Source: a virus. From it: a stretch of 25,112 nucleotides of DNA. The notes below the pieces were generated by a model. That model made no database searches and was not told the DNA's origin. It saw only the letters and a list, made by a program, of their open reading frames with translations. A program made the position numbers and the translations under genes. Every line of letters starts with the position of its first letter. Within the stretch, counting starts at the first letter, position 1. The stretch is taken from IMG/VR virus record IMGVR_UViG_3300050014_000685, positions 1-25,112 of that record; one strand, 5' to 3'. Positions 4,849-25,112 of the stretch are shown here, piece by piece.

Positions 4849-6288
4849 CTATTGCCTCCTTGTCTTATTCAGATAGTCAAACACTCCCAGCCCTTCCCCA
4901 TTCTGCTCTCTGATGGCCTTATCCCACTTCTTAGACCACGATTGGTGGGAGCGGCGGGCCTGCCTGCCCATGGATGATAGATGGGACTCATCGGTGGCCG
5001 ACATGGCTGGTGGTCGGGGGCGGGAATTCACAATATACCGCACATTGTCGATGGCGTGGTCGGGACCCTTATATTCGATGGAGCCATTGGATTGTAGCTT
5101 GCGCTGCCAGGAGGTAAACTCGTCAATGGTGTGGATGCAGGACTCCAGCACATACAAGCGAGGGGCACCCAAATTGCCGGTAAGGGGATGGGCATGGAGG
5201 GGGTCCACATGGAGAAGCTGCTTGACGCGCTCGATGCCGGATTCGAGGGCGTTCCAGGCTGGCACGGTGGACAACCCCTCATCCTGATACATCTCCCTGA
5301 TGGACTGTAGACGATTATCGTCGGACTTGACATTGGTGCGCTGAGCCGAGGACGGATCTATCAGGGTATATTCATATTGATAGCCGTTAGACATATAGAA
5401 TGCGATGCGGTCGATTATGTCTCGGGCGTGGTCGCTGAGCATGCGTTCCGACCGGTAGTACTCCCAGCATATAAAATGGTTGAAGTCCGAATCGATGGCT
5501 AGGTCCACCTTGGCGGTGATAGTGGCAGGGGCCGGGTCGAGGGAACCAAATATGCGCATACCGGATAGGGGCGGCATCACATTCAGCACATGAATGTCGC
5601 GGCTGAATTCCTTGTATACCATCCCCTCACTAATCTCCCATGACCCGTCCACATACTTCTTAACCCATTCCTCGGGAAAGTTAGCCCGTAGGTAGGGGAT
5701 GTAGTCGTCGGGCAGGCCGGGGTTATCCTTGGCCAGGGAGGGGATGAAGCAGCGGTCGGGACGCTCAATATCCACAAATCGCTTCTTGACCCATCCAGGT
5801 TCGGGATTGCAGGCTAACATGGCCATATAGGCCGGGCGGGTGCCGTCCGGTAGACGCCAATTAAACTGGGCAATCAGCATGAGGTAGGTAGATTCCTCAA
5901 TCTCGGACGGCTCATCAATAGCCAACCAACCTAGATCGATGCCCTTCACCTTCTCTAGTTCATCCTCGTCGCCTACGCCACGGTAAATAAAGTAGGAGCC
6001 GTTAACAAAGGTAATCATGCGATCACCCAAATGGTGGCGGGCAATAAGGCCAGGGGGGCAGACCTGCATAAAGGTGACCAGAGTAGAGTCCTTAAGGTCG
6101 GTAAGATTCTGGCGACAGAGTAGGCCGCGATTGCCAGGGAAGGCCATGGATAGGGCTATAATCTTCTGGCACAGGGCAACGGACTTGCCACCGCGCTTGG
6201 CCCCGCCGAATAACTGTTCGCGCTCGGCGGCATTCATGAACTTAATCTGCTGAATGTGGGGAGGAATGCGGAAACGGACCTCTGCCAT
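4849..6288 (-). CDS. terminase large subunit (packaging ATPase/nuclease)
   Basis: This 479-residue motor protein would cut concatemeric phage DNA and pump it into the prohead through the portal. The ATPase domain shows a Walker A loop GGAKRGGKS (residues 28-36), Walker B LAIDEP with catalytic Glu (122-127, E126) and a coupling motif ACNPEPG (about 159-165). The RNase H-like nuclease domain has acidic residues in GSLDP (D251), TLIDP (D311) and GPDHAIDN (D410/D414), which fit the three-Asp metal site. Length is normal for the family and no break is seen. The start has a GGAGGGG ribosome site. Because DNA here may contain base Z, this motor would act on modified DNA, but I see no obvious adaptation. 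Confidence 0.93.
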   Translation of the reverse strand: MAEVRFRIPPHIQQIKFMNAAEREQLFGGAKRGGKSVALCQKIIALSMAFPGNRGLLCRQNLTDLKDSTLVTFMQVCPPGLIARHHLGDRMITFVNGSYFIYRGVGDEDELEKVKGIDLGWLAIDEPSEIEESTYLMLIAQFNWRLPDGTRPAYMAMLACNPEPGWVKKRFVDIERPDRCFIPSLAKDNPGLPDDYIPYLRANFPEEWVKKYVDGSWEISEGMVYKEFSRDIHVLNVMPPLSGMRIFGSLDPAPATITAKVDLAIDSDFNHFICWEYYRSERMLSDHARDIIDRIAFYMSNGYQYEYTLIDPSSAQRTNVKSDDNRLQSIREMYQDEGLSTVPAWNALESGIERVKQLLHVDPLHAHPLTGNLGAPRLYVLESCIHTIDEFTSWQRKLQSNGSIEYKGPDHAIDNVRYIVNSRPRPPAMSATDESHLSSMGRQARRSHQSWSKKWDKAIREQNGEGLGVFDYLNKTRRQ

Positions 6289-7531: not shown

Positions 7532-7559
7532 GGTTGGCGTACCTCCTATCTTCCCATCT

Positions 7560-7589
7560 ATAATATCACCACCCTTGACTCGGTGGCAA
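7560..7589 (-). promoter_or_regulatory. leftward sigma70-like promoter for the late operon
   Basis: On the minus strand, TTGCCA (7589-7584) and TATTAT (7565-7560) are separated by 18 bases and lie just before the HTH gene. The -35 box forms half of a degenerate 15-base inverted repeat (7575-7589, TTGACTCGGTGGCAA on the plus strand). It corresponds to the cleaner repeats at three rightward promoters. A short leader of roughly 20 bases is predicted. Confidence 0.65.
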
Positions 7590-7845
7590 TGGGTAGGGTC
7601 GACTAGGCAGGCCGGTGCGGGTTAGCCTTCGCCGCCTCTTCGCCACGTATACCCCCAGCGCCACCCCCAGCGTATTACCACCCCCGGAGACTTCTTCCTG
7701 CTGTGCGCTGGATCGAGGGGTGCTGCGTGCGCTGTGCGCTCTAACCCTGCATCTCCCCCTTCCCCCCCCCCCAGGCCGTACTACGTATTACCTACCAGCC
7801 AGGCTACCTTCGCCATATTAATAGGCTAACGGGAGGGTATATTTT
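7590..7845. other. divergent intergenic region with a C11 tract and short repeats
   Basis: No convincing gene lies here. It contains three copies of GTGCGCT(G/C) at 7703-7710, 7727-7734 and 7734-7741. There is also a polypyrimidine stretch ending in eleven consecutive C residues (7762-7772), which is G-rich on the minus strand and might form a quadruplex. Function is unknown; regulatory DNA or part of an origin are possibilities. Confidence 0.5.
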
Positions 7846-8001
7846 ATGGCTGTAAACCAATATCCGGATTATACCCCGTATACATCCCGACACGACATCG
7901 ATACCCCCCATGCCCCATGGGCCGATGGACTAATGGGCGTTAAGGTTGGCGTCCTAACAGGGGTCAGGGTGGCGCATGGCCAGTGGCGCACCAGAGGGTG
8001 A
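7846..8001 (+). CDS. small hypothetical protein, 51 residues
   Basis: This short frame starts MAVNQYPDYTPYTSRHDIDT at an ATG with a good GGGAGGG ribosome site (7831-7837). It ends at a TGA at 7999-8001. It is polar and Tyr/His-containing at the N-terminus and Val/Gly/Arg-rich at the C-terminus, with no recognised motif. No clear promoter is visible directly upstream. Its 3' end overlaps a large inverted repeat (7962-8022), so the coding reading competes with a structural one. The strong ribosome site is the main support, and it may be an early leader peptide or not translated at all. Confidence 0.4.
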   Translation: MAVNQYPDYTPYTSRHDIDTPHAPWADGLMGVKVGVLTGVRVAHGQWRTRG

Positions 8002-13021: not shown

Positions 13022-13140
13022 TGGTCAATTTCTTTGGGTGGGCAATGGCTACGTCAATTAAAGTTACGGTGTGGGTTGGGTTAGTATTGCTGGCCATGGT
13101 GGGGCTAAAGCTGTTGCTGGCAGTATGGGCGGTGCTGTGA
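13021..13140 (+). CDS. tiny membrane protein, 39 residues
   Basis: MVNFFGWAMATSIKVTVWVG, followed by LVLLAMVGLKLLLAVWAVL. The ATG overlaps the TGA of the upstream gene and its TGA overlaps the helicase ATG. It has one long hydrophobic segment (about residues 16-39) with a single Lys in the middle and no charged tail. No family is recognised. It is the fourth small hydrophobic protein in this arm. Coupling on both sides supports translation. Confidence 0.55.
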   Translation: MVNFFGWAMATSIKVTVWVGLVLLAMVGLKLLLAVWAVL

Positions 13141-14693
13141 TGGTGCAGATTAACACTGACGCCCCTCCCCCAGTCGCCATTGGCCTCCCCGCCCAGTACG
13201 AGGAGTGGCGTCCGGGACAGTGGGAGTTGCTCACCGGCATCCTGGAGTCAGATGCCAAGCACCACATGCTGATTGCCCCCACCGGGTTTGGCAAGTCCCT
13301 GGCCTACATGGGCATGGCCGCTCTCAACGGGGGCAGGACGGTGATCCTGACCGCTACCAAGGCGCTGCAGGGCCAATTGGTGCGAGACTTTGAGGAGGTA
13401 GGACTGTACGATGTAAGAGGAAGGGGAGCTTATGAATGCACACTGGCCCAACTCCAGCCAGACCTCGCCCACATGGTCAGGCCCAACACCACAGCCGCCA
13501 CCGCCCCCTGCCGCTGGGGGTTTGAGTGCCCTCTCAAGACAAGCTCTGGATGTCCTTATTTTGATAGAATACGCGGGGCTAGGTCGGCCAGTCTTGTCGT
13601 CACCAATTACGATTTCTGGCTCTACAACGATATTGGGGATGTGGGCCTCCTGATTATGGATGAGGCCCACCAGGCCCCCGACGAGCTGGCGGACTTCCTG
13701 AGCTTCCACCTAACCAAGGATATGCGGAAATATCTGGCCGGTAAGATGCCTGAGGGGGAAGATGTGGCCAATTGGAGGGAATGGGCCAAATGGATGTTGG
13801 AGCAGGTCAAGGGTAAGATAGAGCGGAGGGGCCACCCCGATATGAAGCTGGTGGAACTGGCCGGGGGGCTGGACAAGATAGCCCGATTGCTGGCCAGAGG
13901 CGAATGGGTGGTGGAGCGGTTCCCCGATGGGGCGGTCCACTTCGATTGTGTTAACCCTGAGGCATTCGGCTCCATGCTCTGGGGCCGGGTTCCCAAGACT
14001 GTTATGGTGTCAGCAACCTGCAATCGCATGACGGCTGCAGCCATAGGAATAGGAGAGGTGGTACAATGGGAAGCAAAGTCGTCCTTTCCCGTAGAGAGGC
14101 GTCCCGTGTGGGTCATGGAGGGAGCTGTGCAAGTAAACTTCCGGATGGTGGAGGGCCAGAAGCGCCAGTGGGTCAACCTGATCGACCGGGTGATGGCGGC
14201 CAGACCCGACCTGAAGGGTATCGTACATACCACGAGTTTCGAGAGGGCGAGGTACTTACAGCAGCACTCCTCCCACTCTTCACGCTTATTACTGAACGAT
14301 TCGCGGAATACGCGAGAAGTGGTAGCAAATTTCAAGGCGGTGAAGTCGCCATTAGTGCTAGTATCGCCCTCGCTGACGACGGGTTGGGATTTTCCGTACG
14401 ACCAATGCGGTTTTCAGGTGGTTGGGAAGGTCCCATTCCCGGATTTGCGTACCAAGGCGGCGAAGGTGAAGGCGGAGAGGAACAAGGACTGGGCGGGGTA
14501 TATGGCCGCACAGCAGATTGTGCAGAGTTCAGGGAGGGGGATGAGGGCCAAGGATGACCGGTGCGAGACCTTCATATGTGACGGGAATTTTGGCTGGTGG
14601 TACGGGAAGAACAGGCAGTTCACACCCAAATGGTGGCAGGATGCGGTAAGGCGCGTGACAGGAGGGAGGATACCAGATGCCTTGGATAAATAG
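13140..14693 (+). CDS. DinG/XPD-like iron-sulfur DNA helicase (SF2)
   Basis: I start at the ATG at 13140, which overlaps the stop of the tiny membrane gene (517 residues); the frame extends a little upstream without a better start. Motif I is APTGFGKS (46-53) and motif II is DEAH (174-177). Motif VI near the C-terminus is QSSGRGMRAKDD. Four cysteines at 100, 124, 130 and 138 between motifs I and II are placed like the 4Fe-4S ligands of XPD and DinG, which unwind DNA 5' to 3'. The protein would open duplex or repair intermediates during replication. The arrangement is established for the family; the phage role is inferred. It is shorter than E. coli DinG, as expected for phage versions. Confidence 0.85.
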   Translation: MVQINTDAPPPVAIGLPAQYEEWRPGQWELLTGILESDAKHHMLIAPTGFGKSLAYMGMAALNGGRTVILTATKALQGQLVRDFEEVGLYDVRGRGAYECTLAQLQPDLAHMVRPNTTAATAPCRWGFECPLKTSSGCPYFDRIRGARSASLVVTNYDFWLYNDIGDVGLLIMDEAHQAPDELADFLSFHLTKDMRKYLAGKMPEGEDVANWREWAKWMLEQVKGKIERRGHPDMKLVELAGGLDKIARLLARGEWVVERFPDGAVHFDCVNPEAFGSMLWGRVPKTVMVSATCNRMTAAAIGIGEVVQWEAKSSFPVERRPVWVMEGAVQVNFRMVEGQKRQWVNLIDRVMAARPDLKGIVHTTSFERARYLQQHSSHSSRLLLNDSRNTREVVANFKAVKSPLVLVSPSLTTGWDFPYDQCGFQVVGKVPFPDLRTKAAKVKAERNKDWAGYMAAQQIVQSSGRGMRAKDDRCETFICDGNFGWWYGKNRQFTPKWWQDAVRRVTGGRIPDALDK

Positions 14694-15091: not shown

Positions 15092-15895
15092 ATGGGAATT
15101 TCACTTAGACCATCAAGCTTTACCGCTGGCGGGGGCCTGATCGACGACGCCGATGTCGAGATCACCAAGGCGCGGTTTGTCCAGTACGACTTCGAGGGCA
15201 AGTCGGAGAACGGCCCGTCACTCTGCCTCATGCTGGTGCTGGCCGATACCGAGAAGAATGATCACGTCCAGTACTTCTCAGCCGGGAATCTGGCCTACTT
15301 CGTCCCCAGCGAGGACCCCAAGAACCCGGACCTCAACGGGATCACCATAGTCAAGGTGGGGGATAAGGAAAGTCTGAACGGCGGCACCAACACCGCCATC
15401 ATGCTCAACTCCCTTGTCCAAGCGGGCTTCCCGGAGGACAAGATGGACGCCGGGGACGTCAGAGTGCTGGAAGGGCTGGTGGGGCACGTAAACCGTGTGC
15501 CGCAACCCAAGCGGTCCAACATTGCCAAGAAGGAGGGGCAGCGGGACCCGATGGTGCTGGTGTTCACCAAGATCCTGAGCATGCCGGGGGAGCAGAAGAA
15601 GGGGGCAGCGGCCAAGACAACTGCTGCTGCAAAGAGTGCCTCCGCCACCGCGACGACAGCATCTACCAATGGCTCTGACGAGTTGGTCGAGGAACTTACC
15701 GGTGAGTTGATCGGCCTGTTCGCCGCCAAAGGGGTGAGCGAGCTGAAGAAGGTCGAAATCAGCAAGGGCCTGTTCGGCACCATCGACAAGACCAACCCTA
15801 ACAAGAACAAGCTGATCAGCATGGCGGCCAAGGATGATGTGCTGAAGTCGCTGGAAGGGTTCAGCTACAACGGCAGCGTGCTGACACAGGAGTAG
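15092..15895 (+). CDS. hypothetical protein, possible ssDNA-binding protein
   Basis: This 267-residue protein starts MGISLRPSSFTAGGGLIDDA with AAGGAGG upstream. The N-terminal half (about 1-170) is beta-rich, with SLCLMLVLADTEKNDHVQYF and HVNRVPQPKRSNIAKK, compatible with an OB-like fold. A short Ala/Thr/Lys linker (about 170-195) follows, then a helical, charged C-terminal domain. It is the first gene of the unit that encodes the nuclease and RecA-like ATPase, where phages often place their ssDNA-binding protein. I do not see a known SSB tail motif, so the role is inferred from context only. Confidence 0.5.
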   Translation: MGISLRPSSFTAGGGLIDDADVEITKARFVQYDFEGKSENGPSLCLMLVLADTEKNDHVQYFSAGNLAYFVPSEDPKNPDLNGITIVKVGDKESLNGGTNTAIMLNSLVQAGFPEDKMDAGDVRVLEGLVGHVNRVPQPKRSNIAKKEGQRDPMVLVFTKILSMPGEQKKGAAAKTTAAAKSASATATTASTNGSDELVEELTGELIGLFAAKGVSELKKVEISKGLFGTIDKTNPNKNKLISMAAKDDVLKSLEGFSYNGSVLTQE

Positions 15896-16025: not shown

Positions 16026-16634
16026 ATGAAGGTTCGTGAGATTGACAGCCGCGTTACGGACGTACTGAAAGGTGCGTTCGACCACGACCAGAGGTCCACG
16101 GGCCTTCATGCCTCCCAGATATGGGAAGACCTGGATAAGCAGATTAACACCAAGAACCGGACGCCACTGGAATTAGCCAAGCTTGAGGAGTACGGCACCA
16201 TCGGGTTTATGTGGGAGCGGGTGCTGGAGGGAGTGCTGGCCCAGATCACAGTAGACGAGAACCCCCACAGGTATTTTAGGCCGGGGGAGCAATACCTAGA
16301 CGGCATCTACCTAACCCCCGACTACTTCGACGCCGACTTTGCCGGTGATGAGTCCTGCCTGACCGGCGTGGAGGAATGGAAGGTGCGCTGGTGTTCATGC
16401 AACAAGGGCGACGATCTGGAGAAAAACTTCTGGAAGATACTGGTCCAGATAAAAGCGTACTGCAAGGTGCTGGAGACCACGAGGGCCAGACTCAGGATAC
16501 TGTTCATAGTGGGCAACTGGCGGGACGACATAACCCCCAAACTCAGGACTTGGGAGTTGGAGTTCACACAACGGGAAATTGACGATTGCTGGTCGATGCT
16601 AGTCGGCCACGCACGGAGGAAGCAATGGTTATGA
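16026..16634 (+). CDS. PD-(D/E)XK nuclease, lambda-exonuclease/Cas4-like
   Basis: This 202-residue protein carries the pattern of the PD-(D/E)XK fold: GFMWERVLE (E64), YLDGIYLTPD (D92), EEWK (E117-x-K119) and the following helix VQIKAY (Q141). Such enzymes include recombination exonucleases that resect DNA to give single strands for annealing or strand exchange. No cysteine cluster typical of Cas4 is visible. It is followed by a small gene and a RecA-like ATPase and preceded by a possible ssDNA-binding protein, a plausible phage recombination set. The ribosome site is AGGAGG, four bases before the ATG. Endonuclease activity remains an alternative. Confidence 0.8.
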   Translation: MKVREIDSRVTDVLKGAFDHDQRSTGLHASQIWEDLDKQINTKNRTPLELAKLEEYGTIGFMWERVLEGVLAQITVDENPHRYFRPGEQYLDGIYLTPDYFDADFAGDESCLTGVEEWKVRWCSCNKGDDLEKNFWKILVQIKAYCKVLETTRARLRILFIVGNWRDDITPKLRTWELEFTQREIDDCWSMLVGHARRKQWL

Positions 16635-16852
16635 AAGAGCTTAGTCTTGACGGTAAGTCCACCAACCATATTTGGATTATGGAAGATGGACCAGAGACAC
16701 ATCCAGTGGGTATTCGTCTGGATTGCGGGGATGCCGGAACCGTATACATGAGTTATGACCAGTGCATGGAACTGGCGAACCAATTGTGCCAGACGATGGG
16801 AGTAGCAAAGCCATTTCCTTATGCATACATCGATCAGACAGGAGACCGGTGA
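16625..16852 (+). CDS. small hypothetical protein, 75 residues
   Basis: Two starts are possible. The ATG at 16625 is five bases after GGAGG; the ATG at 16631 overlaps the preceding stop. The protein (MVMKELSLDGKSTNHIWIME...) is beta-prone at first, with GIRLDCGDAGTVYMSYDQCM followed by a helix. It sits between nuclease and ATPase and overlaps both by a few bases, so it is surely co-translated. No known motif is present. A small regulator or subunit of the recombination set is possible by context only. Confidence 0.6.
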   Translation: MVMKELSLDGKSTNHIWIMEDGPETHPVGIRLDCGDAGTVYMSYDQCMELANQLCQTMGVAKPFPYAYIDQTGDR

Positions 16853-17649
16853 TGGCTGTAATTAAGGGGGCTGCATCAGCGTCCGGGTTCACACTGGCCA
16901 CTACCAAGGCCAAACACAGGCTTATTATGTCGATTGAGGGGACGGAGAAGTGTGGCAAGAACCACTTTGCCTTTACCGCTCCCGGCCCGGTATACTTCCA
17001 CTCGCTCGACTTCGGCGATGAGGGCGTGATCCAGAAGTTCCAGCCTGGTGGGGCCTTCCACCGTCCCGGCCTCAAGATACACAAGGCCGAATACAGGCTG
17101 GACATCCCGCCCAATACGGCCATCCAGGATGCGGCAGACACCGCTCGTCCGGTATGGTCCAGGTTCCTATCCAACTTTGCCGAGGGATTGGCCAAGGGCA
17201 GGACGACGATTGTGGATACCGCCACCGAGGCATACGAGGTGCTCAGAATGGCGGAGTTCGGCAAGTTGACCCAGGTGATGCCCCACCATTATGGCCCGGT
17301 GAACCAGGTGATGAAGGGGTTATGGCGGGATGCCTACAACTCCGACTCCAACCTGATCATGCTCCACCGGATGAAGGAGGAGTGGGAGAACAAGGTTAAC
17401 AGCCAGGGTAAAGAGGTGGGGAACAAGACTGGGCGCTGGGAGATGGCAGGGTATAAGGGGACATACTTTGAGGCCCAAGTGTGCTGCAGGGCGTACAAGG
17501 AGGGTGGGGAGTTCAAGCTACTGATCTTCGACTGCAGGCAGAATCCTGATCTGGAGGGGATGGTGCTGGAGCAGGGCAGTGGGATGCTGGACTTCAAGAC
17601 CTTAGGTCAACTCGTCTTTCCAGAATCGGAGGAATCAGAATGGCAGTAA
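16852..17649 (+). CDS. RecA-like ATPase, Sak4/AAA-type recombination protein
   Basis: This 265-residue protein has a P-loop EGTEKCGKN (29-37) and a Walker B-like strand RTTIVDTATEAYE (117-129). Length and layout fit the phage AAA/RecA-core ATPases that include Sak4-type single-strand annealing or recombination proteins. The P-loop ends in Lys-Asn rather than Lys-Thr/Ser, an unusual change. The ATG overlaps the upstream TGA. The last 18 codons, from Lys 17596 to the stop, are a recoded version of the 3' end of the following HNH frame. This suggests the HNH gene was inserted here and supplied a new tail (see 17596-18011). It probably works with the nuclease upstream. Confidence 0.7.
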   Translation: MAVIKGAASASGFTLATTKAKHRLIMSIEGTEKCGKNHFAFTAPGPVYFHSLDFGDEGVIQKFQPGGAFHRPGLKIHKAEYRLDIPPNTAIQDAADTARPVWSRFLSNFAEGLAKGRTTIVDTATEAYEVLRMAEFGKLTQVMPHHYGPVNQVMKGLWRDAYNSDSNLIMLHRMKEEWENKVNSQGKEVGNKTGRWEMAGYKGTYFEAQVCCRAYKEGGEFKLLIFDCRQNPDLEGMVLEQGSGMLDFKTLGQLVFPESEESEWQ

Positions 17650-18011
17650 TACCCGACGATTTGAAGGACCTTCCACAAGACTTAGCCACCAGAGTGTGGA
17701 GAAAGAGAATACAAAACTCTGGTTGGAAGAGCCGTAATCCTGAGAAGATGAAAGAAATACAAAAAAACGGGTATAGAAAACTAAGAAAACAAGTGATGGA
17801 CGCCTATGGGGCTAAGTGCAAATGCTGTGGAGAAGAACACGACGAGTTTCTAACTATCGATCATATTGGTGGTGATGGAGCCAAGCACAGAAAAGAAACC
17901 AACAATGAAGTATACGCGTGGCTTAGAAGGAACGGGTATCCAGAAGGATTCCAAGTGTTGTGCATGAATTGTAACTTTTCGATAGGGATGCGAGGATATT
18001 GTCCACACAAC
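17596..18011 (+). mobile_element. inserted HNH homing-type element with recoded host-gene tail
   Basis: The ATPase ends KTLGQLVFPESEESEW plus Q, and the HNH frame ends KTLGQLVFPESDEGEW plus L. Fourteen of 17 residues agree, yet nine of those 14 codons differ in sequence. Removing 17596-18011 joins the ATPase in frame to the second copy, whose TGA overlaps the next gene's ATG (18062) in the usual way. The inserted part is AT-richer. It therefore appears that an HNH gene entered the ATPase 3' end and carried a synonymous tail. That would keep the ATPase functional and destroy the cleavage site. Exact borders are estimates. Confidence 0.75.
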
Positions 18012-18065
18012 AAGACCTTGGGGCAGCTAGTCTTCCCTGAGAGTGATGAGGGGGAATGGTTATGA
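17640..18065 (+). CDS. HNH endonuclease, probable homing enzyme
   Basis: This 141-residue protein has a Lys/Arg-rich N-terminus and a Zn-type HNH core: CKCCG (60-64), LTIDHIGGDG (71-80, D74-H75), QVLCMNCNFSIG (C108, C111) and RGYCPH (C121, H123). Such proteins nick or cut DNA at specific sites and often act as free-standing homing enzymes in phages. The ATG overlaps the last ten bases of the ATPase gene. The last 18 codons are shared with, and probably derived from, the original ATPase 3' end, so they are likely a passenger tail on the nuclease. Base composition is clearly more AT-rich than the neighbours, a sign of transfer. Confidence 0.9.
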   Translation: MAVIPDDLKDLPQDLATRVWRKRIQNSGWKSRNPEKMKEIQKNGYRKLRKQVMDAYGAKCKCCGEEHDEFLTIDHIGGDGAKHRKETNNEVYAWLRRNGYPEGFQVLCMNCNFSIGMRGYCPHNKTLGQLVFPESDEGEWL

Positions 18066-18259: not shown

Positions 18260-18573
18260 TGGGCGGATGTGGCGGTAAGAAAGCAAGAGAGAAGCGGAAG
18301 GCTGGGACCTCCACAGTGGGGGGCAAGTTTGATTCCATAGGCCAGGTTGAAGAGCAGCAGGCCAACCATGCGCTGGTGGTGAGGCTGTTGGCCGAGATAA
18401 TCCCTCTGGTCCACCATGCCTCATCCAACGACCGCCTGTTCCTGCAGGATGTCAGAATAAAGCTGAACCAGCAGGGATCCAACGCCCAATTCGGGTGGCG
18501 TCAGGTGGAAGCCATGGTCAGGGTGCATGCCGAAGTACTGGACAAGGAGGCTCACAGTGGCAAGCGCAATTGA
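18259..18573 (+). CDS. hypothetical protein, 104 residues
   Basis: The ATG at 18259 overlaps the previous TGA and lies six bases after AGGAGG (18247-18252); an in-frame ATG at 18253 would touch that site. The N-terminus is Gly/Lys/Arg-rich (MGGCGGKKAREKRKAG), then two amphipathic helices follow (QQANHALVVRLLAEIIPLV and GWRQVEAMVRVHAEVLDKEA). No known domain is recognised. It overlaps the MazG-like gene by 17 bases and is thus tied to the nucleotide cluster, but it need not share its function. Confidence 0.6.
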   Translation: MGGCGGKKAREKRKAGTSTVGGKFDSIGQVEEQQANHALVVRLLAEIIPLVHHASSNDRLFLQDVRIKLNQQGSNAQFGWRQVEAMVRVHAEVLDKEAHSGKRN

Positions 18574-18964
18574 GCCAGCCGCCCGCGCCCTGGCCCAACG
18601 CACCATCGATCTGGCCCGTCTAGCTGCCATCCGAAAGCATGGGGAATTACAAGGGGGAATGGCCCGCTGGATTCACCACCTGCGGGAGGAGACTGAGGAA
18701 GCCTGTGACGAGATGTTAGCCCTCGGCTTCCACCACACCAATGCTCAATACCACGAACACAAAGTTAACCTTATTACTGAGTTGTCCCAGGTAGCGCAAC
18801 TGGCCCAATCCATGATGACCCTATTGTACCTTAACCGAGAGATGGAGGAGAAAACTCAATGGCAACCGGAAGACCTGAACATATATTCGGATCCAGAACC
18901 GCCGAGCCCAAGCCCATTATCATTGTCCAAGGTGGACAGTGGGGATCAGAAGCTAAAGGGCTGA
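18557..18964 (+). CDS. MazG-like NTP pyrophosphohydrolase, candidate MazZ
   Basis: I start at the GTG at 18557, seven bases after AAGGAGG (135 residues). The core reads KHGELQGGMARWIHHLREET, then EEACDEM, and later LITELSQVAQLAQSMMTLL. This is the all-alpha MazG pattern: EExxE at residues 44-48, and ExxQ at 75-78 where classical MazG has ExxD. In Z-genome phages MazZ converts dGTP to dGMP, the PurZ substrate, and its gene often sits by purZ. Here its last 106 bases overlap purZ, so the two are tightly coupled. The Gln variant is found in some MazG-like phage proteins. Substrate specificity cannot be read from the sequence. Confidence 0.65.
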   Translation: MASAIEPAARALAQRTIDLARLAAIRKHGELQGGMARWIHHLREETEEACDEMLALGFHHTNAQYHEHKVNLITELSQVAQLAQSMMTLLYLNREMEEKTQWQPEDLNIYSDPEPPSPSPLSLSKVDSGDQKLKG

Positions 18965-20226
18965 TCACCCACAAGCTAACCATGGAGAAGAAGGTGGACT
19001 GGGCCATCCGCACCGGCACCGTCAACGCTGGCCACACTGTCTACCACAAGGGTGTGGCCTATGCCATGCAGCAGCTTCCTGTGTCCTGGGTCCGCCCGGA
19101 GTGCATGCTGGTGCTGGGTCCAGGGGCCTATATCCACCCCGACATCCTGATGCGCGAAATTGAGTGGATCATGGAGGCACAGGGGTTGAGGCTGGACACA
19201 GTATTGGACCGGGTATGGATCGATTACCGTTGCGGCATCCATCTACCGTCCCACACCGATCGTGCCCACCATGCCGACCGCCATCATAGCATCGGGACCA
19301 CCGGCAAGGGGTGCTCAGAGGCTGTAATGGACAAGATCAAAGGGCGCGACCAGGATCCTCTCCCCACCTTCCAAGCATGGGTGGCCGACAAGCCGGGGTT
19401 CTGGCAGAATGTAGCCCGGCGCATTACCGACACCACCGTGCTGATGAATGACGCCTATGACGCTGGCGACCAGATCCTGCTGGAGGGGACGCAAGGGACG
19501 CTGCTGGACTTGCACCTCGGCGACTACCCCTTCACCACCCACAAGCAGACCCAGGCGGCCAGTTGGCTTGCAGAGGCCGGATTGTCCTGTACCCTGCAGA
19601 ATGACTTATGGCTGGTAATGCGCACCTACCCGATCAGAGTGGCGGGGAATTCAGGACCGATGCCGGGCGAAATATCCTGGCCGAGGCTGGCCAATCTGAT
19701 CAACGACCGGCAAGGAATAGAGAGGGTGGGGGAGTGGGCGCTCAGCGAGTGGAACGCCGGTCTGGCCCTGGCACGGGCCAACAATTACCCTGAAGCCCCC
19801 AGCCCGGAGCCTGCCTGCTGGACCCAGCAGCAGCGCCAGGAGAACCGGGAGGCGGCCAGCGAATTGCACAATGAAGCGTTCAAGCTGATGTCGACCAAGG
19901 CTCAGGCCGAATTGTGCAAGCTGTTCGAGTTCACCACTGTGACCAAGAAGCTGCGGCGGATTGGCGAGTGGGATTGGAACGTGGCCCAGAAGTCCCTCAT
20001 GCTGAATCGCCCTCACCACATCGCCCTCACCTTCGCCAACTATAAATGGCCCAAGCTGTGGGGAGCAGACTGGAAGCGGGCGTGGGAGGGGTACAGCCAG
20101 TGGGGAGAGTGGGTGGACATCCTTAATACCTTCTCCCGCAAGGAGGCGGCCAGCGGCCCGGTGGGGATGATAAGCTTCGGCCCCCAGATCGAACACACCC
20201 ATATGGACACGGAGACTGCCCGGTGA
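18859..20226 (+). CDS. purZ: PurZ, 2-aminodeoxyadenylosuccinate synthetase
   Basis: This 455-residue PurA homologue carries GGQWGSEAKG (residues 25-34). PurA has GDEGKG there, and its catalytic Asp is replaced by Ser30, the known mark of phage PurZ. PurZ joins dGMP and aspartate to start 2-aminoadenine synthesis. Other family motifs are kept: NAGHTV with H65, SIGTTGKG, EGTQGTLLDL, YPFTT, YPIRVAGNSGP and TVTKKLRRIG. The ATG is seven bases after GGAGGAG and inside the MazG-like gene; no later start would keep the P-loop. Downstream genes include DatZ and the polymerase. The product would be finished by host PurB and kinases to dZTP. Confidence 0.92.
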   Translation: MATGRPEHIFGSRTAEPKPIIIVQGGQWGSEAKGLITHKLTMEKKVDWAIRTGTVNAGHTVYHKGVAYAMQQLPVSWVRPECMLVLGPGAYIHPDILMREIEWIMEAQGLRLDTVLDRVWIDYRCGIHLPSHTDRAHHADRHHSIGTTGKGCSEAVMDKIKGRDQDPLPTFQAWVADKPGFWQNVARRITDTTVLMNDAYDAGDQILLEGTQGTLLDLHLGDYPFTTHKQTQAASWLAEAGLSCTLQNDLWLVMRTYPIRVAGNSGPMPGEISWPRLANLINDRQGIERVGEWALSEWNAGLALARANNYPEAPSPEPACWTQQQRQENREAASELHNEAFKLMSTKAQAELCKLFEFTTVTKKLRRIGEWDWNVAQKSLMLNRPHHIALTFANYKWPKLWGADWKRAWEGYSQWGEWVDILNTFSRKEAASGPVGMISFGPQIEHTHMDTETAR

Positions 20227-20954
20227 TCGTCGACCGCCGTGCAGGTAGCGTGGACCTATACCCCCAACTCCAAATGGCCGGTGTCAAGCCCCTGGAGCTG
20301 GGGGAGTTGGGGTACGGGGACATCCAAATAGAGGGCCGGGGGCCTGAGGGGTGCCCCGTGCTGGTGGGGGTGGAATACAAGAAGCTAGGGGACCTGGCCC
20401 AGTGCATCGACAATGGAAGGTTGGTCGGCCATCAGCTTCCTGGAATGCTGGAGAGTTATGATGATGTCTGGGTTCTGGTGGAGGGCATATGGAAACAGGG
20501 AAGGTTTGGCGAGGTATTGGTCCCGCGAGGGTCAACATGGAAACCACTACGATCTGGGACCGGCAATTTCTCCTATATAGCCATGGAGGGGTTTCTATTG
20601 ACCCTGCAGGAAAAGTTGCAGGTGAAGGTGAGGCTTACTGGTACTGGTGGCCAAACGGTACAGTGGCTATCAGCGCTGAACCGGTGGTGGACTGGGAAAG
20701 ATTGGGATGATCATCGTGCTCATCTTAACTTTGATAATAGTCAAGCCCTCAGCCTTATTGCCCGCCCCTCGCTGGTCCGTAAGATGGCGGCGACTCTACC
20801 GGGTATCGGCTGGGACAAGTCCGGCAAGGTTGCTAGGCACTTTGCCAGTGTGGTGGAGATGGTCAATGCCCCCCAAAATGAGTGGGAGCAGATTGAGGGA
20901 ATTGGTAAGGGCATTGCTAAGAATGTGGTAAAGGCAATGGAAGGCGAGGGGTAG
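20223..20954 (+). CDS. ERCC4-type nuclease with tandem helix-hairpin-helix
   Basis: This 243-residue protein starts at a GTG overlapping the purZ stop. The N-terminal nuclease domain has VDRRAGS (3-9), GD (32-33) and E51-Y-K53 with D57, matching GD-ERK-x3-D of XPF/MUS81-family nucleases with the Arg replaced by Tyr. It is followed by IDNGRLVGHQLPGMLESY, as in these families. The C-terminus carries two helix-hairpin-helix units, ATLPGIGWDKSGKVARHF and EWEQIEGIGKGIAKNVVKAM. Such enzymes cut branched DNA, forks and flaps. Lying between purZ and the polymerase, it probably resolves replication or recombination intermediates. Confidence 0.85.
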   Translation: MIVDRRAGSVDLYPQLQMAGVKPLELGELGYGDIQIEGRGPEGCPVLVGVEYKKLGDLAQCIDNGRLVGHQLPGMLESYDDVWVLVEGIWKQGRFGEVLVPRGSTWKPLRSGTGNFSYIAMEGFLLTLQEKLQVKVRLTGTGGQTVQWLSALNRWWTGKDWDDHRAHLNFDNSQALSLIARPSLVRKMAATLPGIGWDKSGKVARHFASVVEMVNAPQNEWEQIEGIGKGIAKNVVKAMEGEG

Positions 20955-20957
20955 GCC

Positions 20958-21293
20958 ATGAAGAAGAAAAGGGATAGGACAGGAGAATACCAACTCAGAA
21001 AGGACTACCATCGGAACCGACACGCCCGGTTGCGACGCGAAATAGCTCTTTTCCTCCGTGCTTATAAAGCCGAGAACCCTTGTACTGATTGCGGCAACCA
21101 CTTTCCTGAATACGTGATGGAGTTCGACCATGTACCAGAACGCGGGAAGGCTCAATCATTAATATCGGCTGTGGTATCATGGGTTACGCTGGATAGGGAA
21201 ATGGAAAAATGCGACTTGGTGTGCGCTAACTGTCACAAAGTAAGGTCTCACGTTAGAGGTCAGTTCAATAGGAAGAATTATGAGAAAGATTGA
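20958..21293 (+). CDS. HNH endonuclease
   Basis: This 111-residue protein has a Lys/Arg-rich N-terminus, then CTDCGNHFPEYVMEFDHVPE with the Asp-His of HNH, and CDLVCANCHKVRSH with the second Cys pair and metal His. It lies between the ERCC4-type nuclease and the polymerase gene and overlaps the latter by 14 bases. The base composition is more AT-rich than the neighbours, suggesting transfer. It looks like a free-standing homing or DNA-cleaving enzyme. Unlike the HNH gene at 17640, I see no copied tail of a neighbouring gene at its ends. Confidence 0.85.
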   Translation: MKKKRDRTGEYQLRKDYHRNRHARLRREIALFLRAYKAENPCTDCGNHFPEYVMEFDHVPERGKAQSLISAVVSWVTLDREMEKCDLVCANCHKVRSHVRGQFNRKNYEKD

Positions 21294-23868
21294 TCCTCGA
21301 AAAGTCGAAGGTATCATGGTCCATGGTGACGGCCCCCGACCAGCACAGATCATGATCATTGGCGAGAGGCCAGGTATGAATGAGCCGCTTGCCGGTAGAC
21401 CGTTCATAGGCATGGCCGGTGTAGAGCTTAACCGATACCTGCGGCTTGCTGGCATCAACCGCGAAGAAGTCTTTGTGACTAACCTGGTACGCGATTGGCG
21501 AGACGACGACCCCGCCGACTGGGAGATTGCCAGAGACGAAGAGGAACTGTTGAAAGAACTGGCTGAAGTGAAACCGGCACTTATAGTGCCAGTAGGCCGG
21601 TTCGCTATCCGTCATTTCTTGGGGGATGTCGATGTCGAACAGGTACACGGGTTGTTGCACATGGTTGGTAGTCAGGCTGTCTACCCGTGCTATCATCCTG
21701 CTGCTGGCCTTCACTCACCAGACGCCATCCAGTTTATACAGGATGACTTCGCCGGATTAGCCGACCCGTGGACCAGAGTCCTACCCCAGGATAAATTTGG
21801 TAGCAAAGGTCTGGCTTATGGAGAGTGGGGGTGGCCCAACGTCTATGTGCCGCTATTTATGGATACAGAAGGGTGGGAGCACAACCCTTGGTGCCTTACC
21901 TTCTCCACCCAGCCCGGCCAGGGGGGCATCATCATGGCGGGCGACGATCAGAAGCTTCGGCGTGTGAAGGAATGGCTGGCCAACTCCCGCGAACCCCTGG
22001 TCCTACACAACGCCATGCACGACATCGGAGTACTACGGGCATTAGGCGTCCGCATCCCCACTGGCCGCATTATCGACACCATGATACTCGCCTATCTACT
22101 ATGCCTGCTTCCCCAAGGGTTGAAGGCCCTCGCCTATCGTCTGGCTGGGATGCGCATGGATTCGTACGACGAGGTAATAGCACCGGGGCGAGAGGTGGTC
22201 TGGGGAGAGTGGATGGAGGGGGCCAAGGCAGTGGCCGACCAGATGCCCGATCCTGAGGCCGAGCTAGTATGGGACGACAAATCGGCCAATTGGCGGGTGA
22301 AGCAGCCGCAGAGCATAGGGCGCAGGATAGCCCGCATGGTGCAGGACGTCGAGAAGAAGGGCATACTGCATCCAGACAACCCCTCCGGAGTGGATATACG
22401 GAAGCGGGTAGATAGCTGGGATGATACTGGGGCGGAAGCGCTGGTGACGGCCATCGGCCCAGTGCCGGAGCCGACCCTGTCGGACATCCCCAGGGAGAGG
22501 GCCATCCACTACGCCTGCCGGGATGCAGACGCTACTGGGCGGGTATTCCCCTTTCTGGTCAAGAAGGTGAAGGACGAGGGGATGTGGGACGTGTGCATGA
22601 TAGACCACGGCATAATGCCGATGGTGGAAAGGATGCAGGCTAATGGACTTCTGGTCGACAAAGCACATATGGAGATGCTTGAGGGCAGACTCACACAGGA
22701 AATGTCTGACAAGCGAGACGAGATTGAAGCGATGGTTGGAGTCAGAATCAACCCCAGTAGCCCACCGCAGACTGCGGCCCTACTGTTTAAGCAACTTAAG
22801 CTCCCCTCGCGTAAGACAACCAGCACCGGCCAGGATAGCACGCAAGATAAGGTTCTGGAAGGCCTTCGCCTTGCTCATCCAGTCGTGCCCCTGGTCCTCG
22901 ACTACCGCGAGTTGGATAAAGCGAGGGGATCGTTCGTTAGGGTGGCACTCACCAAAACCGGAAGTGACAACCGTCTACGATGTAATTTGCGCCTTACGAG
23001 AGTTAGTTCGGGGCGGATCGCTGCAAACACCCCTAACCTCATGGCGATTCCGGTACGGTCGGCGATCGGCAAGGAAATCAGGCAGGGATTTATAGCTCCC
23101 CCCGGCAAGCTGCTGGCCGACTGGGACCTGGATCAAGCAGAGATGAGGTTTATGGCGCATGACTCACAAGACGCATCGCTTGTTGATATCTTCTGTGGTG
23201 GACACCTTGACATCCATACTGACACAGCGGCCCGGATGTTCAGTAAGCCCTATGCCGATGTTGATAAAAACACGGAACGTTACGCAGCTAAACGAGTGGG
23301 CTTTGGAGTTATTACTGGAATTACGGGAGCGGGGTTGGTCGATCAGATGGTGCTGGCAGGTGCCAAGCGGCCAGACGGGGGAGAGTGGACAGAAGGCCAA
23401 TGTGACGATCTTATCGCCCGGTGGTTTCAAGCTAGACCTGGAGTTGCAGTCTACATGGACCGGTGCCGGGCTGAAGCTAGACGCCAGGGCTGGGTCGCTG
23501 ATATGTGGGGGAGAAGGAGGTATCTACCAGGCGTCTGGAGCAGCGTTGAGAGAATACGAGAAGAAGCTTGCCGACAGTCTCACAGCCATAAGATCCAAGC
23601 CGGAGCGCAAGGGTACTTCAAGATAGCAATGGCCCGGATATGGTGGTGGCTGGAGGAGGTATGGTGGCCGAGGGGTGGGAGGTGGGCGGAGATTGAACCG
23701 CTGCTGCAGATACACGACAGCCTGCTGTTTGAACTGCCAGACGACAAAGAGATTGTGGAAGAAGTGGACCAAGTGGTGGTAATGGAGATGGCTGGGGCGG
23801 CGGAATTGAGGGTGCCGATGGGGGCCAAAGGGGGTAGGGCGAAGAATTGGGGAGATCTGAAGGGGTAG
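21280..23868 (+). CDS. family A DNA polymerase fused to UDG-like domain, DpoZ candidate
   Basis: This 862-residue replicative polymerase has three parts. Residues about 20-165 resemble family 4 uracil-DNA glycosylase: GERPGMNEPLAGRPFIGMAG (E29, E35), VTN with N68, and YHPAA with H139; the usual iron-sulfur cysteines are absent. The 3'-5' exonuclease is complete: DTEG (195-198), N244 and D248, and YxxxD (Y411, D415). The polymerase shows motif A (D616, DLDQAEMR), O-helix KRVGFGVITG (671-680) and motif C HDS (812-814). The O-helix Tyr of E. coli Pol I is Thr679 here, and motif C has Ser for Glu. Context with purZ and datZ suggests it copies Z-containing DNA. Confidence 0.9.
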   Translation: MRKIDPRKVEGIMVHGDGPRPAQIMIIGERPGMNEPLAGRPFIGMAGVELNRYLRLAGINREEVFVTNLVRDWRDDDPADWEIARDEEELLKELAEVKPALIVPVGRFAIRHFLGDVDVEQVHGLLHMVGSQAVYPCYHPAAGLHSPDAIQFIQDDFAGLADPWTRVLPQDKFGSKGLAYGEWGWPNVYVPLFMDTEGWEHNPWCLTFSTQPGQGGIIMAGDDQKLRRVKEWLANSREPLVLHNAMHDIGVLRALGVRIPTGRIIDTMILAYLLCLLPQGLKALAYRLAGMRMDSYDEVIAPGREVVWGEWMEGAKAVADQMPDPEAELVWDDKSANWRVKQPQSIGRRIARMVQDVEKKGILHPDNPSGVDIRKRVDSWDDTGAEALVTAIGPVPEPTLSDIPRERAIHYACRDADATGRVFPFLVKKVKDEGMWDVCMIDHGIMPMVERMQANGLLVDKAHMEMLEGRLTQEMSDKRDEIEAMVGVRINPSSPPQTAALLFKQLKLPSRKTTSTGQDSTQDKVLEGLRLAHPVVPLVLDYRELDKARGSFVRVALTKTGSDNRLRCNLRLTRVSSGRIAANTPNLMAIPVRSAIGKEIRQGFIAPPGKLLADWDLDQAEMRFMAHDSQDASLVDIFCGGHLDIHTDTAARMFSKPYADVDKNTERYAAKRVGFGVITGITGAGLVDQMVLAGAKRPDGGEWTEGQCDDLIARWFQARPGVAVYMDRCRAEARRQGWVADMWGRRRYLPGVWSSVERIREEACRQSHSHKIQAGAQGYFKIAMARIWWWLEEVWWPRGGRWAEIEPLLQIHDSLLFELPDDKEIVEEVDQVVVMEMAGAAELRVPMGAKGGRAKNWGDLKG

Positions 23869-23884
23869 CAGGTAATGGACACCC

Positions 23885-23914
23885 TTGACTACGTGTCAAT
23901 ACCTATGGTACAAT
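23885..23914 (+). promoter_or_regulatory. fifth rightward promoter with operator-like repeat
   Basis: TTGACT (23885-23890), 18 bases, TACAAT (23909-23914), then GGTAGT. The -35 lies in TTGACTACGTGTCAA (23885-23899), arms TTGAC/GTCAA. It opens a new unit that includes datZ, so the dATP-removal step may be controlled separately from purZ while sharing the same regulator. Confidence 0.75.
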
Positions 23915-23949
23915 GGTAGTGGAATTGCGGGCTGGGGAGGCCCATCATA

Positions 23950-24384
23950 ATGTCAAGCAAATCAGCACTAGAGAAGGCTGCAGAGGAATTGGCCCTACAG
24001 TCGTGGGACGAGGTAGAAGCCCTGGCCGAGTCCAAGGTAACCATAACCGGAGCAGGGTCGGGAGTAGAGACAGTGGAACTGGACTTCGCTGACGCTATCA
24101 GCCTTCGCGAGGAGCTTAAGTCCCGTATCGATACGGACACCCTCAAGCTCAAGGAGATCAACGACAACCTGCTAGTGGCTGCGCTGGGGGCAGAGGTACA
24201 GAAGGTTAAACTGTGGGCAGGGATGACCTTCGAGGTGCGGTCGGGGCGGTCGGCCAGCAAGATTGTGGCCACCAGGCTGCTGGAGCAGGGAGTAAGCTTG
24301 GACCAGATCCAATCGGCTACGGTCGAGGGTTCGGCTTACCAGTACGTCCAGGTGAATAAACCCAAGCCGCCGAAGGGAGCATGA
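23950..24384 (+). CDS. helical hypothetical protein, 144 residues
   Basis: This protein starts MSSKSALEKAAEELALQSWD with GGGGAGG nine bases upstream. The N-terminal half is acidic and helical with a possible coiled coil around residues 45-75 (DAISLREELKSRIDTDTLKL). The C-terminal half has KVKLWAGMTFEVRSGRSASK and a basic end. No catalytic motif or family is recognised. It is the first gene after the fifth promoter and its TGA overlaps the datZ ATG, so it is translated together with the nucleotide enzyme. A function in DNA metabolism is possible by context only. Confidence 0.6.
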   Translation: MSSKSALEKAAEELALQSWDEVEALAESKVTITGAGSGVETVELDFADAISLREELKSRIDTDTLKLKEINDNLLVAALGAEVQKVKLWAGMTFEVRSGRSASKIVATRLLEQGVSLDQIQSATVEGSAYQYVQVNKPKPPKGA

Positions 24385-24917
24385 TGGTGGGCCAGTCGAG
24401 GGTAAGGGACCTATTAAACCTGTCATATGTCAAGCGGTGGGTGATCGCCCCGATGTACCGGGAACAGTCGGTGGCGGAGCATACCTTTCGCGTGATGGTG
24501 ATACTATGGGGCCTGCACGACGCACTGCTGTCTGCAGGCCACGTCTCATTCCCAATTTGCGACGGTCTGATGGATGCCATGTTGCACGATGTGGATGAAG
24601 TATACAGTGGGGATGTGCCGGGGCCGCACAAGGATAAGAGCAAGGGATGGAAAGACCCGGCCACCATGATGAACTTGGAAGTGGCAGTTAAGGTGGCCGA
24701 CAGTCTGGAGACCTGGGACTGGTGGAGGAAGCATGGGGATAAGGGATGGGGACACGATATGAAGCCTGCATGGGGGCCTGAGTGCCGGGATATCAAGAAA
24801 ATCCACCATTACTGCCGAGAGTGGCCCGAACTATTGGAGGCGGCCAAGGTGGTAGTAGAATTGGCCATGGGGTGTGGTAAAATCGAAATGGAGGGGGTAT
24901 TCTATGTTGGACACTAG
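24381..24917 (+). CDS. datZ: DatZ-like HD-domain dATP triphosphohydrolase
   Basis: This 178-residue protein is a YfbR/DatZ-type HD hydrolase. It has KRWVIAPMYREQSVAEHTFR with H34, then LHDVDEVYSGDVPGPHK with H69-D70, and VKVADSLETWDW with D107, the four expected metal ligands. In Z-genome phages DatZ breaks dATP into deoxyadenosine and triphosphate. That empties the dATP pool so the polymerase inserts Z instead of A. Length fits DatZ (about 175 residues). The ATG overlaps the preceding stop. YfbR-type 5'-nucleotidases share the fold, so activity on dAMP is the main alternative; the presence of purZ favours DatZ. Confidence 0.85.
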   Translation: MMVGQSRVRDLLNLSYVKRWVIAPMYREQSVAEHTFRVMVILWGLHDALLSAGHVSFPICDGLMDAMLHDVDEVYSGDVPGPHKDKSKGWKDPATMMNLEVAVKVADSLETWDWWRKHGDKGWGHDMKPAWGPECRDIKKIHHYCREWPELLEAAKVVVELAMGCGKIEMEGVFYVGH

Positions 24918-25112
24918 CAAGTTCGATGTCGGAGTGAAAGAATACTACAACAAGTTGAGTCGACAGGCGCAAACGGATATCCCCATGCAACAACAGGTGG
25001 GGGCCAACAAGCGGTTCGACTCAGGGGCCGAGAGGTCGCCCGACGCTGACCGGTACCGGTTCGACCTGTTGTGCCCAGAGGCGATGGGCAGGCTGGCCGC
25101 TACCATGGCGGA
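24904..25112 (+). CDS. dATP/dGTP diphosphohydrolase-like N-terminal domain, partial
   Basis: The ATG follows GGAGGGGG and overlaps the datZ 3' end by 14 bases; the frame runs off the window after 69 residues. It contains KRFDSGAERSPDADRYRFDL, then LCPEAMGRLAATMA. This matches my memory of the DUF5664 domain, now described as the N-terminal domain of dATP/dGTP diphosphohydrolases. Those proteins typically continue with a glycine- and Lys-rich motif outside this window. It would be a second candidate for the dGTP-to-dGMP step feeding PurZ. The catalytic part is not visible, so activity cannot be judged. Confidence 0.65.
   Translation, partial: MLDTSKFDVGVKEYYNKLSRQAQTDIPMQQQVGANKRFDSGAERSPDADRYRFDLLCPEAMGRLAATMA

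Follow-up and report, generated by a model that had tools for sequence, protein, structure and literature searches.

A candidate 2-aminoadenine replication module in an uncultivated tailed phage of an undescribed lineage

The uncultivated virus record IMGVR_UViG_3300050014_000685, analysed here over its entire 25,112 bases (the window), belongs to a tailed phage from an undescribed lineage, in whose DNA 2-aminoadenine (Z) most probably takes the place of adenine. We give this reading a probability of roughly three in four. Its grounds are gene content, residues, phylogeny, synteny, gene co-occurrence and the depletion of a class of palindromes. The left part of the window carries the head genes of a tailed phage on the minus strand (portal, large and small terminase subunits), and the right part a plus-strand replication module that extends from a helicase gene (13071) to the contig end and contains purZ, datZ and a DNA polymerase gene.

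A sequence-only reading of this DNA had proposed a five-gene block at 18557-25112, composed of a MazG-like pyrophosphohydrolase, PurZ with an Asp-to-Ser mark, a family A polymerase, a DatZ-like HD hydrolase and the start of a diphosphohydrolase-like gene, and had read it as a Z-genome pathway. All five genes were found at their places, with a true start of the block at 18527 and unequal support: purZ, datZ and the family A polymerase are firm, while the MazG-like and DUF5664 candidates for dGTP hydrolysis are weakly supported. An ERCC4-HHH nuclease, an HNH gene, a UDG domain and a gene at 23950-24384 had gone unmentioned. The Z interpretation is supported by the residues of PurZ and DatZ, by synteny, co-occurrence and the restriction footprint; a DpoZ polymerase and the Ser mark as proof had to be given up, and a link to MazZ could not be shown. 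The features concerned, found by scans of the window proteins against Pfam, PHROGs and NCBIfam and by alignments, are the following.

18527..18964 (+): MazG-like all-alpha NTP-pyrophosphohydrolase candidate P0002, 145 amino acids, from a clade profile; its end overlaps the purZ start
18859..20226 (+): purZ-like 2-aminoadenylosuccinate synthetase, 455 amino acids, from phrog_1211, the S-type clade and a structure match
18946..18948 (+): codon of Ser30 at the site of the Asp-to-Ser change (equivalent to S23 in S-2L PurZ and Asp13 in E. coli PurA), from alignments
19693..19920 (+): insertion of about 75 residues in PurZ (approximately residues 279-354), predicted helical, before the aspartate loop, from alignment and model
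19933..19935 (+): codon of Thr359, part of the aspartate loop EFTTVTKK (equivalent to T273 in S-2L PurZ, whereas typical PurA has Gly), from alignment
20038..20040 (+): codon of Asn394 (Q308 in S-2L, N297 in phiVC8: ATP type), from alignment; role according to PMC8342488
21280..23868 (+): UDG, 3'-5' exonuclease and family A DNA polymerase P0006, 862 amino acids (PF03167, PF01612, PF00476)
23314..23316 (+): codon of Thr679 in polymerase helix O (GFGVITG), usually Tyr and in DpoZ Phe (F459 of phiVC8), from alignments
24381..24917 (+): predicted datZ-like dATP triphosphohydrolase, 178 amino acids, phrog_7076 at 1e-17, key residues kept
24904..25112 (+): start of a DUF5664-like gene (dATP/dGTP diphosphohydrolase candidate), cut by the contig end, 69 amino acids, small profile E=0.0095

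PurZ

The start codon at 18859 is preceded by a GGAGG motif and overlaps the end of the gene before. That this gene encodes a PurZ with the Asp-to-Ser mark was borne out by matches to phrog_1211 ('2-aminooxy adenylosuccinate synthetase', E=1.3e-63) and Pfam PF00709 (1.4e-47) and by the motif GGQWGSEAKG. In the S-2L structure S23, T273 and Q308 are the PurZ-specific residues contacting the substrates, and Q308 (N297 in phiVC8) explains the use of ATP instead of GTP (PMC8342488). We compared these sites across 176 aligned homologues, drawn from phages, IMG/VR contigs, plasmids and the genomes of bacteria and archaea. The window PurZ carries all three PurZ-specific residues, as Ser30, Thr359 and Asn394. 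In archaeal and bacterial PurA these sites are typically occupied by Asp, Gly and Asp, and in the PurZ0 phages and the majority of Ser-type viral sequences by Ser, Thr and Asp. The combination Ser/Thr/Asn is found in phiVC8-type phages, in the clade of the window and, beyond these, in one viral contig and two Patescibacteria bins. Every member of the window clade whose sequence spans the Asp-to-Ser site has Ser there, and according to the alignment the insertion of about 75 residues is missing from both phage PurZ and PurZ0.

A maximum-likelihood tree of 56 sequences splits all Ser-type proteins from PurA (100/100). The window protein does not group inside bacterial PurA, the outcome that had been named as refuting the Z pathway, and an assignment to bacterial or archaeal PurA is rejected, as the tree places the Ser-type superclade apart. 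Within the latter, the window and five IMG/VR sequences form a clade of their own (100/100), which is neither PurZ (S-2L/phiVC8) nor PurZ0 (Wayne/Ghobes). With 194 of the 300 bits required by the NCBIfam PurZ model (NF038379) the protein stays outside the PurZ family as modelled, and the archaeal PurA model scores it slightly higher (206 versus 194 bits). Because of these scores we regard it as a remote PurZ.

When a profile of the window clade plus known PurZ was used, phiVC8 PurZ (6fm1) was the top solved structure (1e-121). An AlphaFold model (pLDDT 81) has the PurA/PurZ fold. By fold comparison alone the nearest structure is the archaeal PurA of Pyrococcus, followed by phiVC8 PurZ and PurZ0; therefore it is not the fold that decides membership in PurZ, but residues and tree. 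The Ser mark had been taken as a sign of Z-phages. It is insufficient alone, and its use as a diagnostic character is rejected, since Ser-type proteins are common in bacterial chromosomes and plasmids.

As a side observation, the Results of PMC12884076 name ATP as the nucleotide preferred by PurZ0 and GTP as that preferred by PurZ. This seems opposite to the S-2L and phiVC8 structures and also to the Asp/Asn pattern in our alignment, and is possibly a slip of wording.

DatZ and its association with purZ

The DatZ-like HD hydrolase was likewise confirmed, by a match to phrog_7076 ('dATP triphosphohydrolase', 1e-17) and by S-2L DatZ (6zpa) as the best solved structure (1.3e-6, versus 0.0035 for YfbR). 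When aligned with seven known DatZ proteins, the window protein agrees with S-2L DatZ at all 15 key residues that can be aligned (R19, W20, I22, Q29, A32, H34, H66, D67, E70, G74, D75, P79, K81, K116 and D119), and E93 falls into an alignment gap. The roles of the S-2L residues in binding metal and phosphate and in adenine specificity have been described (PMC8065100). Since I22, the residue excluding the 2-amino group, is kept, dZTP should be spared by the window enzyme.

A purZ of the window clade occurs on at least eight other viral contigs. A search for related loci with the lone PurZ protein gave no matches; an alignment had to be used as query. The shared block has the order helicase, single-strand-binding-like gene, Cas4-like gene, RecA-like ATPase, small gene, purZ, ERCC4, UDG-Pol, a gene of unknown function and datZ, and is found, whole or up to the contig end, in L023/L024/L039, L025, L026, L046, L103 and L211 (38-54% protein identity). 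The slot of the small gene before purZ is occupied by a MazG-like or other NTP-pyrophosphohydrolase-like gene. L027 belongs to the same purZ clade, yet has different neighbours. The contig of L103 (G008, 42,838 bases) appears to be circular and complete because of a 126-base terminal repeat located within purZ; its terminase and portal have counterparts in the window, and so has one of its head genes, at 75% identity.

The same ERCC4 and UDG-Pol genes also occur on contigs that lack purZ (G011 and others), for several of which this status applies to their sequenced part. A datZ gene is present in all four purZ-bearing contigs whose post-polymerase region was recovered (window, G004, G008, G021) and in none of seven purZ-less ones (Fisher p=0.003). 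An extra control query, the BUCT555 helicase, gave no matches.

The DNA polymerase

P0006 is a family A polymerase, as proposed (PF00476, 1e-79), with an N-terminal UDG domain of the family-4 type (PF03167, 2.8e-21) and a 3'-5' exonuclease that retains its acidic residues. It is 38-52% identical to the polymerases of related contigs. The further assignment to DpoZ failed on scores, clade and helix O. The two NCBIfam DpoZ models gave 127.7 of 500 and 55.6 of 350 bits, far under both cut-offs; the identities DpoZ-1 and DpoZ-2 are rejected, as the protein falls outside both DpoZ clades, and nearest in sequence is canonical Pol I. Insertion 2 of the phiVC8 enzyme (DpoZ-2) was not found in the window polymerase.

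The Tyr of helix O is the only position altered in both DpoZ clades, to Phe (PMC8599892). In the lineage of the window it is Thr in five of the five purZ-bearing polymerases in which the site was available. Six purZ-less relatives have Tyr (four), Met (one) or Phe (one), but never Thr. Because the purZ-bearing polymerases form a single clade, this Thr counts as one evolutionary event. The polymerase type of the window is one not previously linked to Z in the papers that we consulted.

Two side observations concern this gene. In L032, which bears purZ and does not belong to the window clade, the helix-O residue is Thr, too. The polymerase is a single gene in the window and in L026 and consists of two overlapping reading frames, split at the same place, in L023, L025 and G008 (UDG-exonuclease and polymerase frames at L023:6106-7547, L025:8617-11072 and L103:1933-4334). 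The second frame starts at a conserved NTGGCTARR overlapping the first, in a case of either gene fission or recoding.

Candidates for dGTP hydrolysis

The proposal of a MazG-like pyrophosphohydrolase found a basis in the related contigs. A family of short proteins overlaps the purZ start in another frame (G008, L023/L024/L039, L025, L046, L211), and a profile of such genes from G008, L046, L025 and L023 detects P0002 at E=5.8e-6, with all of 3000 shuffled sequences scoring far lower. Within the family, the G008 protein has a match to Pfam MazG that does not reach the cut-off (E=0.0043). The acid pattern of P0002, E54-E55-x-x-E58 and E84-x-x-Q87, resembles MazG. P0002 itself had no match below 0.01 in Pfam, PHROGs or NCBIfam and none by tblastn against phages, and a fold search with its single-sequence model (pLDDT 67) gave no meaningful match. 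Of the four acidic metal ligands that are strictly conserved in MazZ (E35, E38, E50, D53), three are present, and the fourth is Gln in every clade member. The link to MazZ-1 or MazZ-2 was not found: no profile alignment was obtained, with thin profiles and a MazZ-1 set that held a poorly cut SH-Ab segment.

The diphosphohydrolase-like gene start was also recovered in part. The fragment of 69 amino acids before the contig end scores above 1000 shuffled sequences with a small DUF5664 profile, but with an E-value of no more than 0.0095; this profile had been freed of DUF550-type sequences, as a mixed version scored the window gene among the shuffles. Neither Pfam (including dGTP_diPhyd_N, PF18909) nor tblastn gave a match. 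In the relative L026 a clear DUF5664 gene lies beside purZ (3e-24), and DUF1599 genes are near purZ in L025, L027 and G008. Because such different NTP-pyrophosphohydrolase-like genes are found near purZ, it looks as if the dGTP-hydrolysing function had been replaced repeatedly, in agreement with the convergence that PMC12884076 describes. The DUF1599 genes (nucleotide modification associated domain 1) are upstream of purZ, at L025:6044-6682, L027:5632-6246 and 42013-42516 of G008 (in L187).

Restriction-site footprint

A Z-phage would tolerate A/T-containing palindromes, yet avoid those made of G and C only. Expectations for 6-bp palindromes were calculated with a maximal-order Markov model, separately for GC-only and A/T-containing ones. 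The window has 2 GC-only palindromes where 65.7 are expected, and 249 A/T-containing ones versus an expected 334.7 (binomial 4e-17); hexamers of G and C that are not palindromic occur at 1.02 times their expected number. The depletion is visible in each half of the window. Among 103 contigs the window is the most depleted one, the eight lowest all bear purZ, and none of the 52 controls is as extreme as the window. As groups, the known Z-phages (p=0.0015) and all purZ contigs pooled (Mann-Whitney p=5e-6) are shifted as well. In three genomes the contrast had initially been clean; once controls were included it was significant, but not specific, and the p-values are optimistic, as the contigs share descent. 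We also observed an equally extreme depletion in L032, L037, L051 and L080, which bear purZ and are not of the window clade.

Proposed pathway and alternative explanations

In the pathway that we propose, the MazG-like protein, the DUF5664 protein or both would turn dGTP (and dATP) into the monophosphates. PurZ would join dGMP and aspartate, using ATP, to succino-2-amino-dAMP, which host PurB and nucleotide kinases would convert to dZTP. DatZ would remove dATP by converting it to deoxyadenosine. A polymerase that lacks the known DpoZ marks would thus meet mainly dZTP opposite T, and the Tyr-to-Thr change in helix O may add selectivity. A/T-containing restriction sites would then be protected; G/C-only sites would stay exposed and hence be purged. 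We tentatively go one step further and suggest, at somewhat less than even odds, a third, independently assembled Z-replication system, characterized by a PurZ clade beyond PurZ and PurZ0, a UDG-exonuclease-PolA replicase with helix-O Tyr changed to Thr, a new dGTP supplier of MazG-like type and the loss of GC-only palindromes throughout the genome, usable as a sequence-only footprint of modification at A positions.

Several points weigh against a Z genome. Each enzymatic step and the base composition are inferred from sequence. The tree gives no resolved placement of the window PurZ clade relative to PurZ and PurZ0 inside the Ser-type superclade. Cellular Ser-type proteins exist to which sequence does not assign a substrate, and some of them (L105, L106) share all three residues with the window clade. 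In P0002 Gln replaces one metal-binding Asp of the four MazZ ligands, and a putative homology to MazZ lacks profile support. Without DpoZ features, the choice of Z over A would have to rest on DatZ, as in S-2L, or on another putative mechanism. As for the palindromes, one of two control sets (TerL2) is also shifted (median -0.43), the relatives L206 and L209, purZ-less in their sequenced part, are strongly depleted, and S-2L, Hiyaa and Milani show no GC-only depletion. Because of the TerL2 controls and of L206 and L209, we take the palindrome depletion as supportive, not as decisive. These two relatives may have another modification at the A position, or purZ in their missing parts.

An unlikely alternative is that dZTP is made and adenine only partly replaced by a non-discriminating polymerase, with Z as a minor base or as a disturbance of the host pool. 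A polymerase that stands outside both DpoZ clades, closest in sequence to canonical Pol I, and has neither the DpoZ insertion nor the helix-O Phe is what one would expect in this case. DatZ is intact, though, and always accompanies purZ here; S-2L keeps A out with an unselective PrimPol plus DatZ (PMC8065100); and the palindrome bias fits near-complete protection. Less probable still is a PurZ-like enzyme acting on another substrate, in a cassette for nucleotide-pool control or counter-defence. Ser-type genes on bacterial chromosomes adjoin a dCTP-deaminase-like gene and a deoxynucleoside kinase, so that Ser is no proof of dGMP use; against this, the checked chromosomal and plasmid forms carry Asp at the GTP/ATP position, a few Patescibacteria excepted, the TTVT loop and Asn of the window match phiVC8 PurZ, and a DatZ-type gene is linked here, whereas none was seen beside the examined chromosomal cassettes.

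We consider it very improbable that the GC-only depletion reflects nothing but the particular restriction enzymes of the host, in a phage with ordinary DNA and decayed or borrowed nucleotide genes. The depletion of L206 and L209 would fit such a view, but the window exceeds all 52 controls, all frames are intact and active-site residues are kept at 40-50% identity across contigs, and the latter two features therefore point to selection. Substitution of adenine by Z remains our preferred reading.

Flanking genes and related contigs

The other features of the window are the head genes, the beginning of the replication module and the genes located between purZ, polymerase and datZ:

1721-3889 (-): portal, which with the terminase genes marks a tailed phage
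4849..6288 (-): terminase large subunit, 43% identity to G008
6535-7503 (-): terminase small subunit, which with portal and large subunit marks a tailed phage
13071..14693 (+): DEAD-type helicase opening the shared replication module, phrog_2488 at 4.4e-75, 36-44% identical to its counterparts on related contigs
15092..15895 (+): conserved gene of the replication module, its position suggesting a single-strand-binding-like protein, 27-37% identical to its counterparts on related contigs
16026..16634 (+): conserved gene of the replication module with a Cas4/RecB-like appearance, 30-40% identical to its counterparts on related contigs
16762..17649 (+): RecA/Sak4-like ATPase (AAA_24), Pfam AAA_24 at 0.0049, below cut-off, 34-40% identity in related contigs
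20223..20954 (+): ERCC4-like nuclease with HhH domain, Pfam ERCC4 at 0.0034 and HHH_2 at 0.00024, both below the gathering cut-off
20958..21293 (+): HNH endonuclease, probably mobile, phrog_3106 at 1.1e-20
23950..24384 (+): conserved gene, function unknown, located between polymerase and datZ and matching over short stretches the genes that L025 (E 1.6e-4) and G008 (4e-4) have in this position

The ERCC4-like nuclease (34-44% identity in L023, L025, L026 and G008) sits between purZ and polymerase in every contig long enough to cover it. HNH endonuclease genes are present twice, at 17640-18065 upstream of the purZ block and at 20958-21293 between the ERCC4 gene and the polymerase. In L209 a methyltransferase-like gene follows the polymerase.

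L026 and L027 also carry DutZ-like genes. In L027 a PurB-like lyase gene (6640-7950) is located directly upstream of purZ, and the records of Ghobes and Hiyaa annotate a PurB-like gene, too; some Z-phages seem to bring their own second pathway step. A scan of IMG/VR with Ser-type PurZ patterns found at least 549 viral stretches encoding relatives, some on contigs of 150-310 kb, from which purZ looks far commoner than among the named phages.

The cellular Ser-type genes deserve a separate remark. On bacterial chromosomes and plasmids, L109, L113, L129, L017 and about 28 other cellular loci share a conserved cassette that combines, according to Pfam, an RNase H-like exonuclease, a Ser-type PurZ-like protein, a dCTP-deaminase-like (DCD) protein and often a deoxynucleoside kinase. 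PADLOC gave only weak single-protein matches on this cassette, which is possibly an undescribed nucleotide-based defence or modification island. In L016, L018, L019, L116, L162 and L180, from rhizobial plasmids and soil bacteria, kinase-PurZ fusions (N-terminal AAA_18) lie beside a DUF7002 protein; these are Ser-type with Asp at the donor site, and HD hydrolases are near some plasmid copies.

Comparison with known systems

Natural departures from the standard A:T base pair are rare, and Z-genomes are one of them. The lineage described here adds a polymerase of a third type and a relative that appears to be complete and circular, and its purZ-less sisters with the same replication module allow a natural paired comparison of what the switch from A to Z requires. 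Provided that its imperfect specificity is allowed for, GC-only palindrome depletion makes it possible to test uncultivated phages for modification at adenine positions from sequence alone. The sisters (G011/L190, L198, L206-L209) share helicase, single-strand-binding-like gene, Cas4-like gene, RecA-like ATPase, ERCC4 and UDG-Pol with the window, with polymerases 33-40% identical to that of the window, but have no purZ, datZ or MazG-like gene and Tyr, Phe or Met in helix O. The bacterial Ser-type PurZ-like proteins (Nostoc, Nitrosomonas, rhizobial plasmids) have the Asp-to-Ser mark in common with the window, the plasmid forms at up to 36% identity. They differ by Asp (GTP type) at the donor site and by their neighbours, which are DCD, deoxynucleoside kinase and RNase H-like genes, or by a kinase fusion with DUF7002.

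Up to 2026 two Z-genome lineages were recognised, PurZ and PurZ0, each with its own DpoZ (PMC12884076). The PurZ0-type phages Wayne, Ghobes and Hiyaa have DutZ/DmtZ/DUF5664 and DpoZ-1. The window resembles them in the PurZ motif GSEAKG and the DUF5664 candidate, and so do its relatives L026 and L027 in their DutZ-like genes and L027 in its PurB-like gene. In contrast to them, the window has Asn instead of Asp at the nucleotide-donor site of PurZ, a DatZ, a polymerase of another clade and no DutZ or DmtZ. The PurZ-type phages phiVC8, SH-Ab 15497, PMBT28 and S-2L have DatZ, MazZ/DUF550 and either DpoZ-2 or PrimPol. Like these, the window has a purZ with Ser, TTVT and Asn/Gln (ATP type), a datZ that keeps the same key residues, a small pyrophosphohydrolase-like gene adjoining purZ and, as most of them, a PolA polymerase. 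Unlike these, its PurZ has GSEAKG instead of GSTGKG, the 75-residue insertion and a separate clade (100/100); its polymerase is UDG-fused with Thr679, is not DpoZ-2 and stands between purZ and datZ; its pyrophosphohydrolase candidate gave no match to MazZ with the thin profiles used; and an ERCC4 nuclease lies within the block. Summarizing, the gene kit is known in kind, and new are its combination, the PurZ clade and the polymerase.

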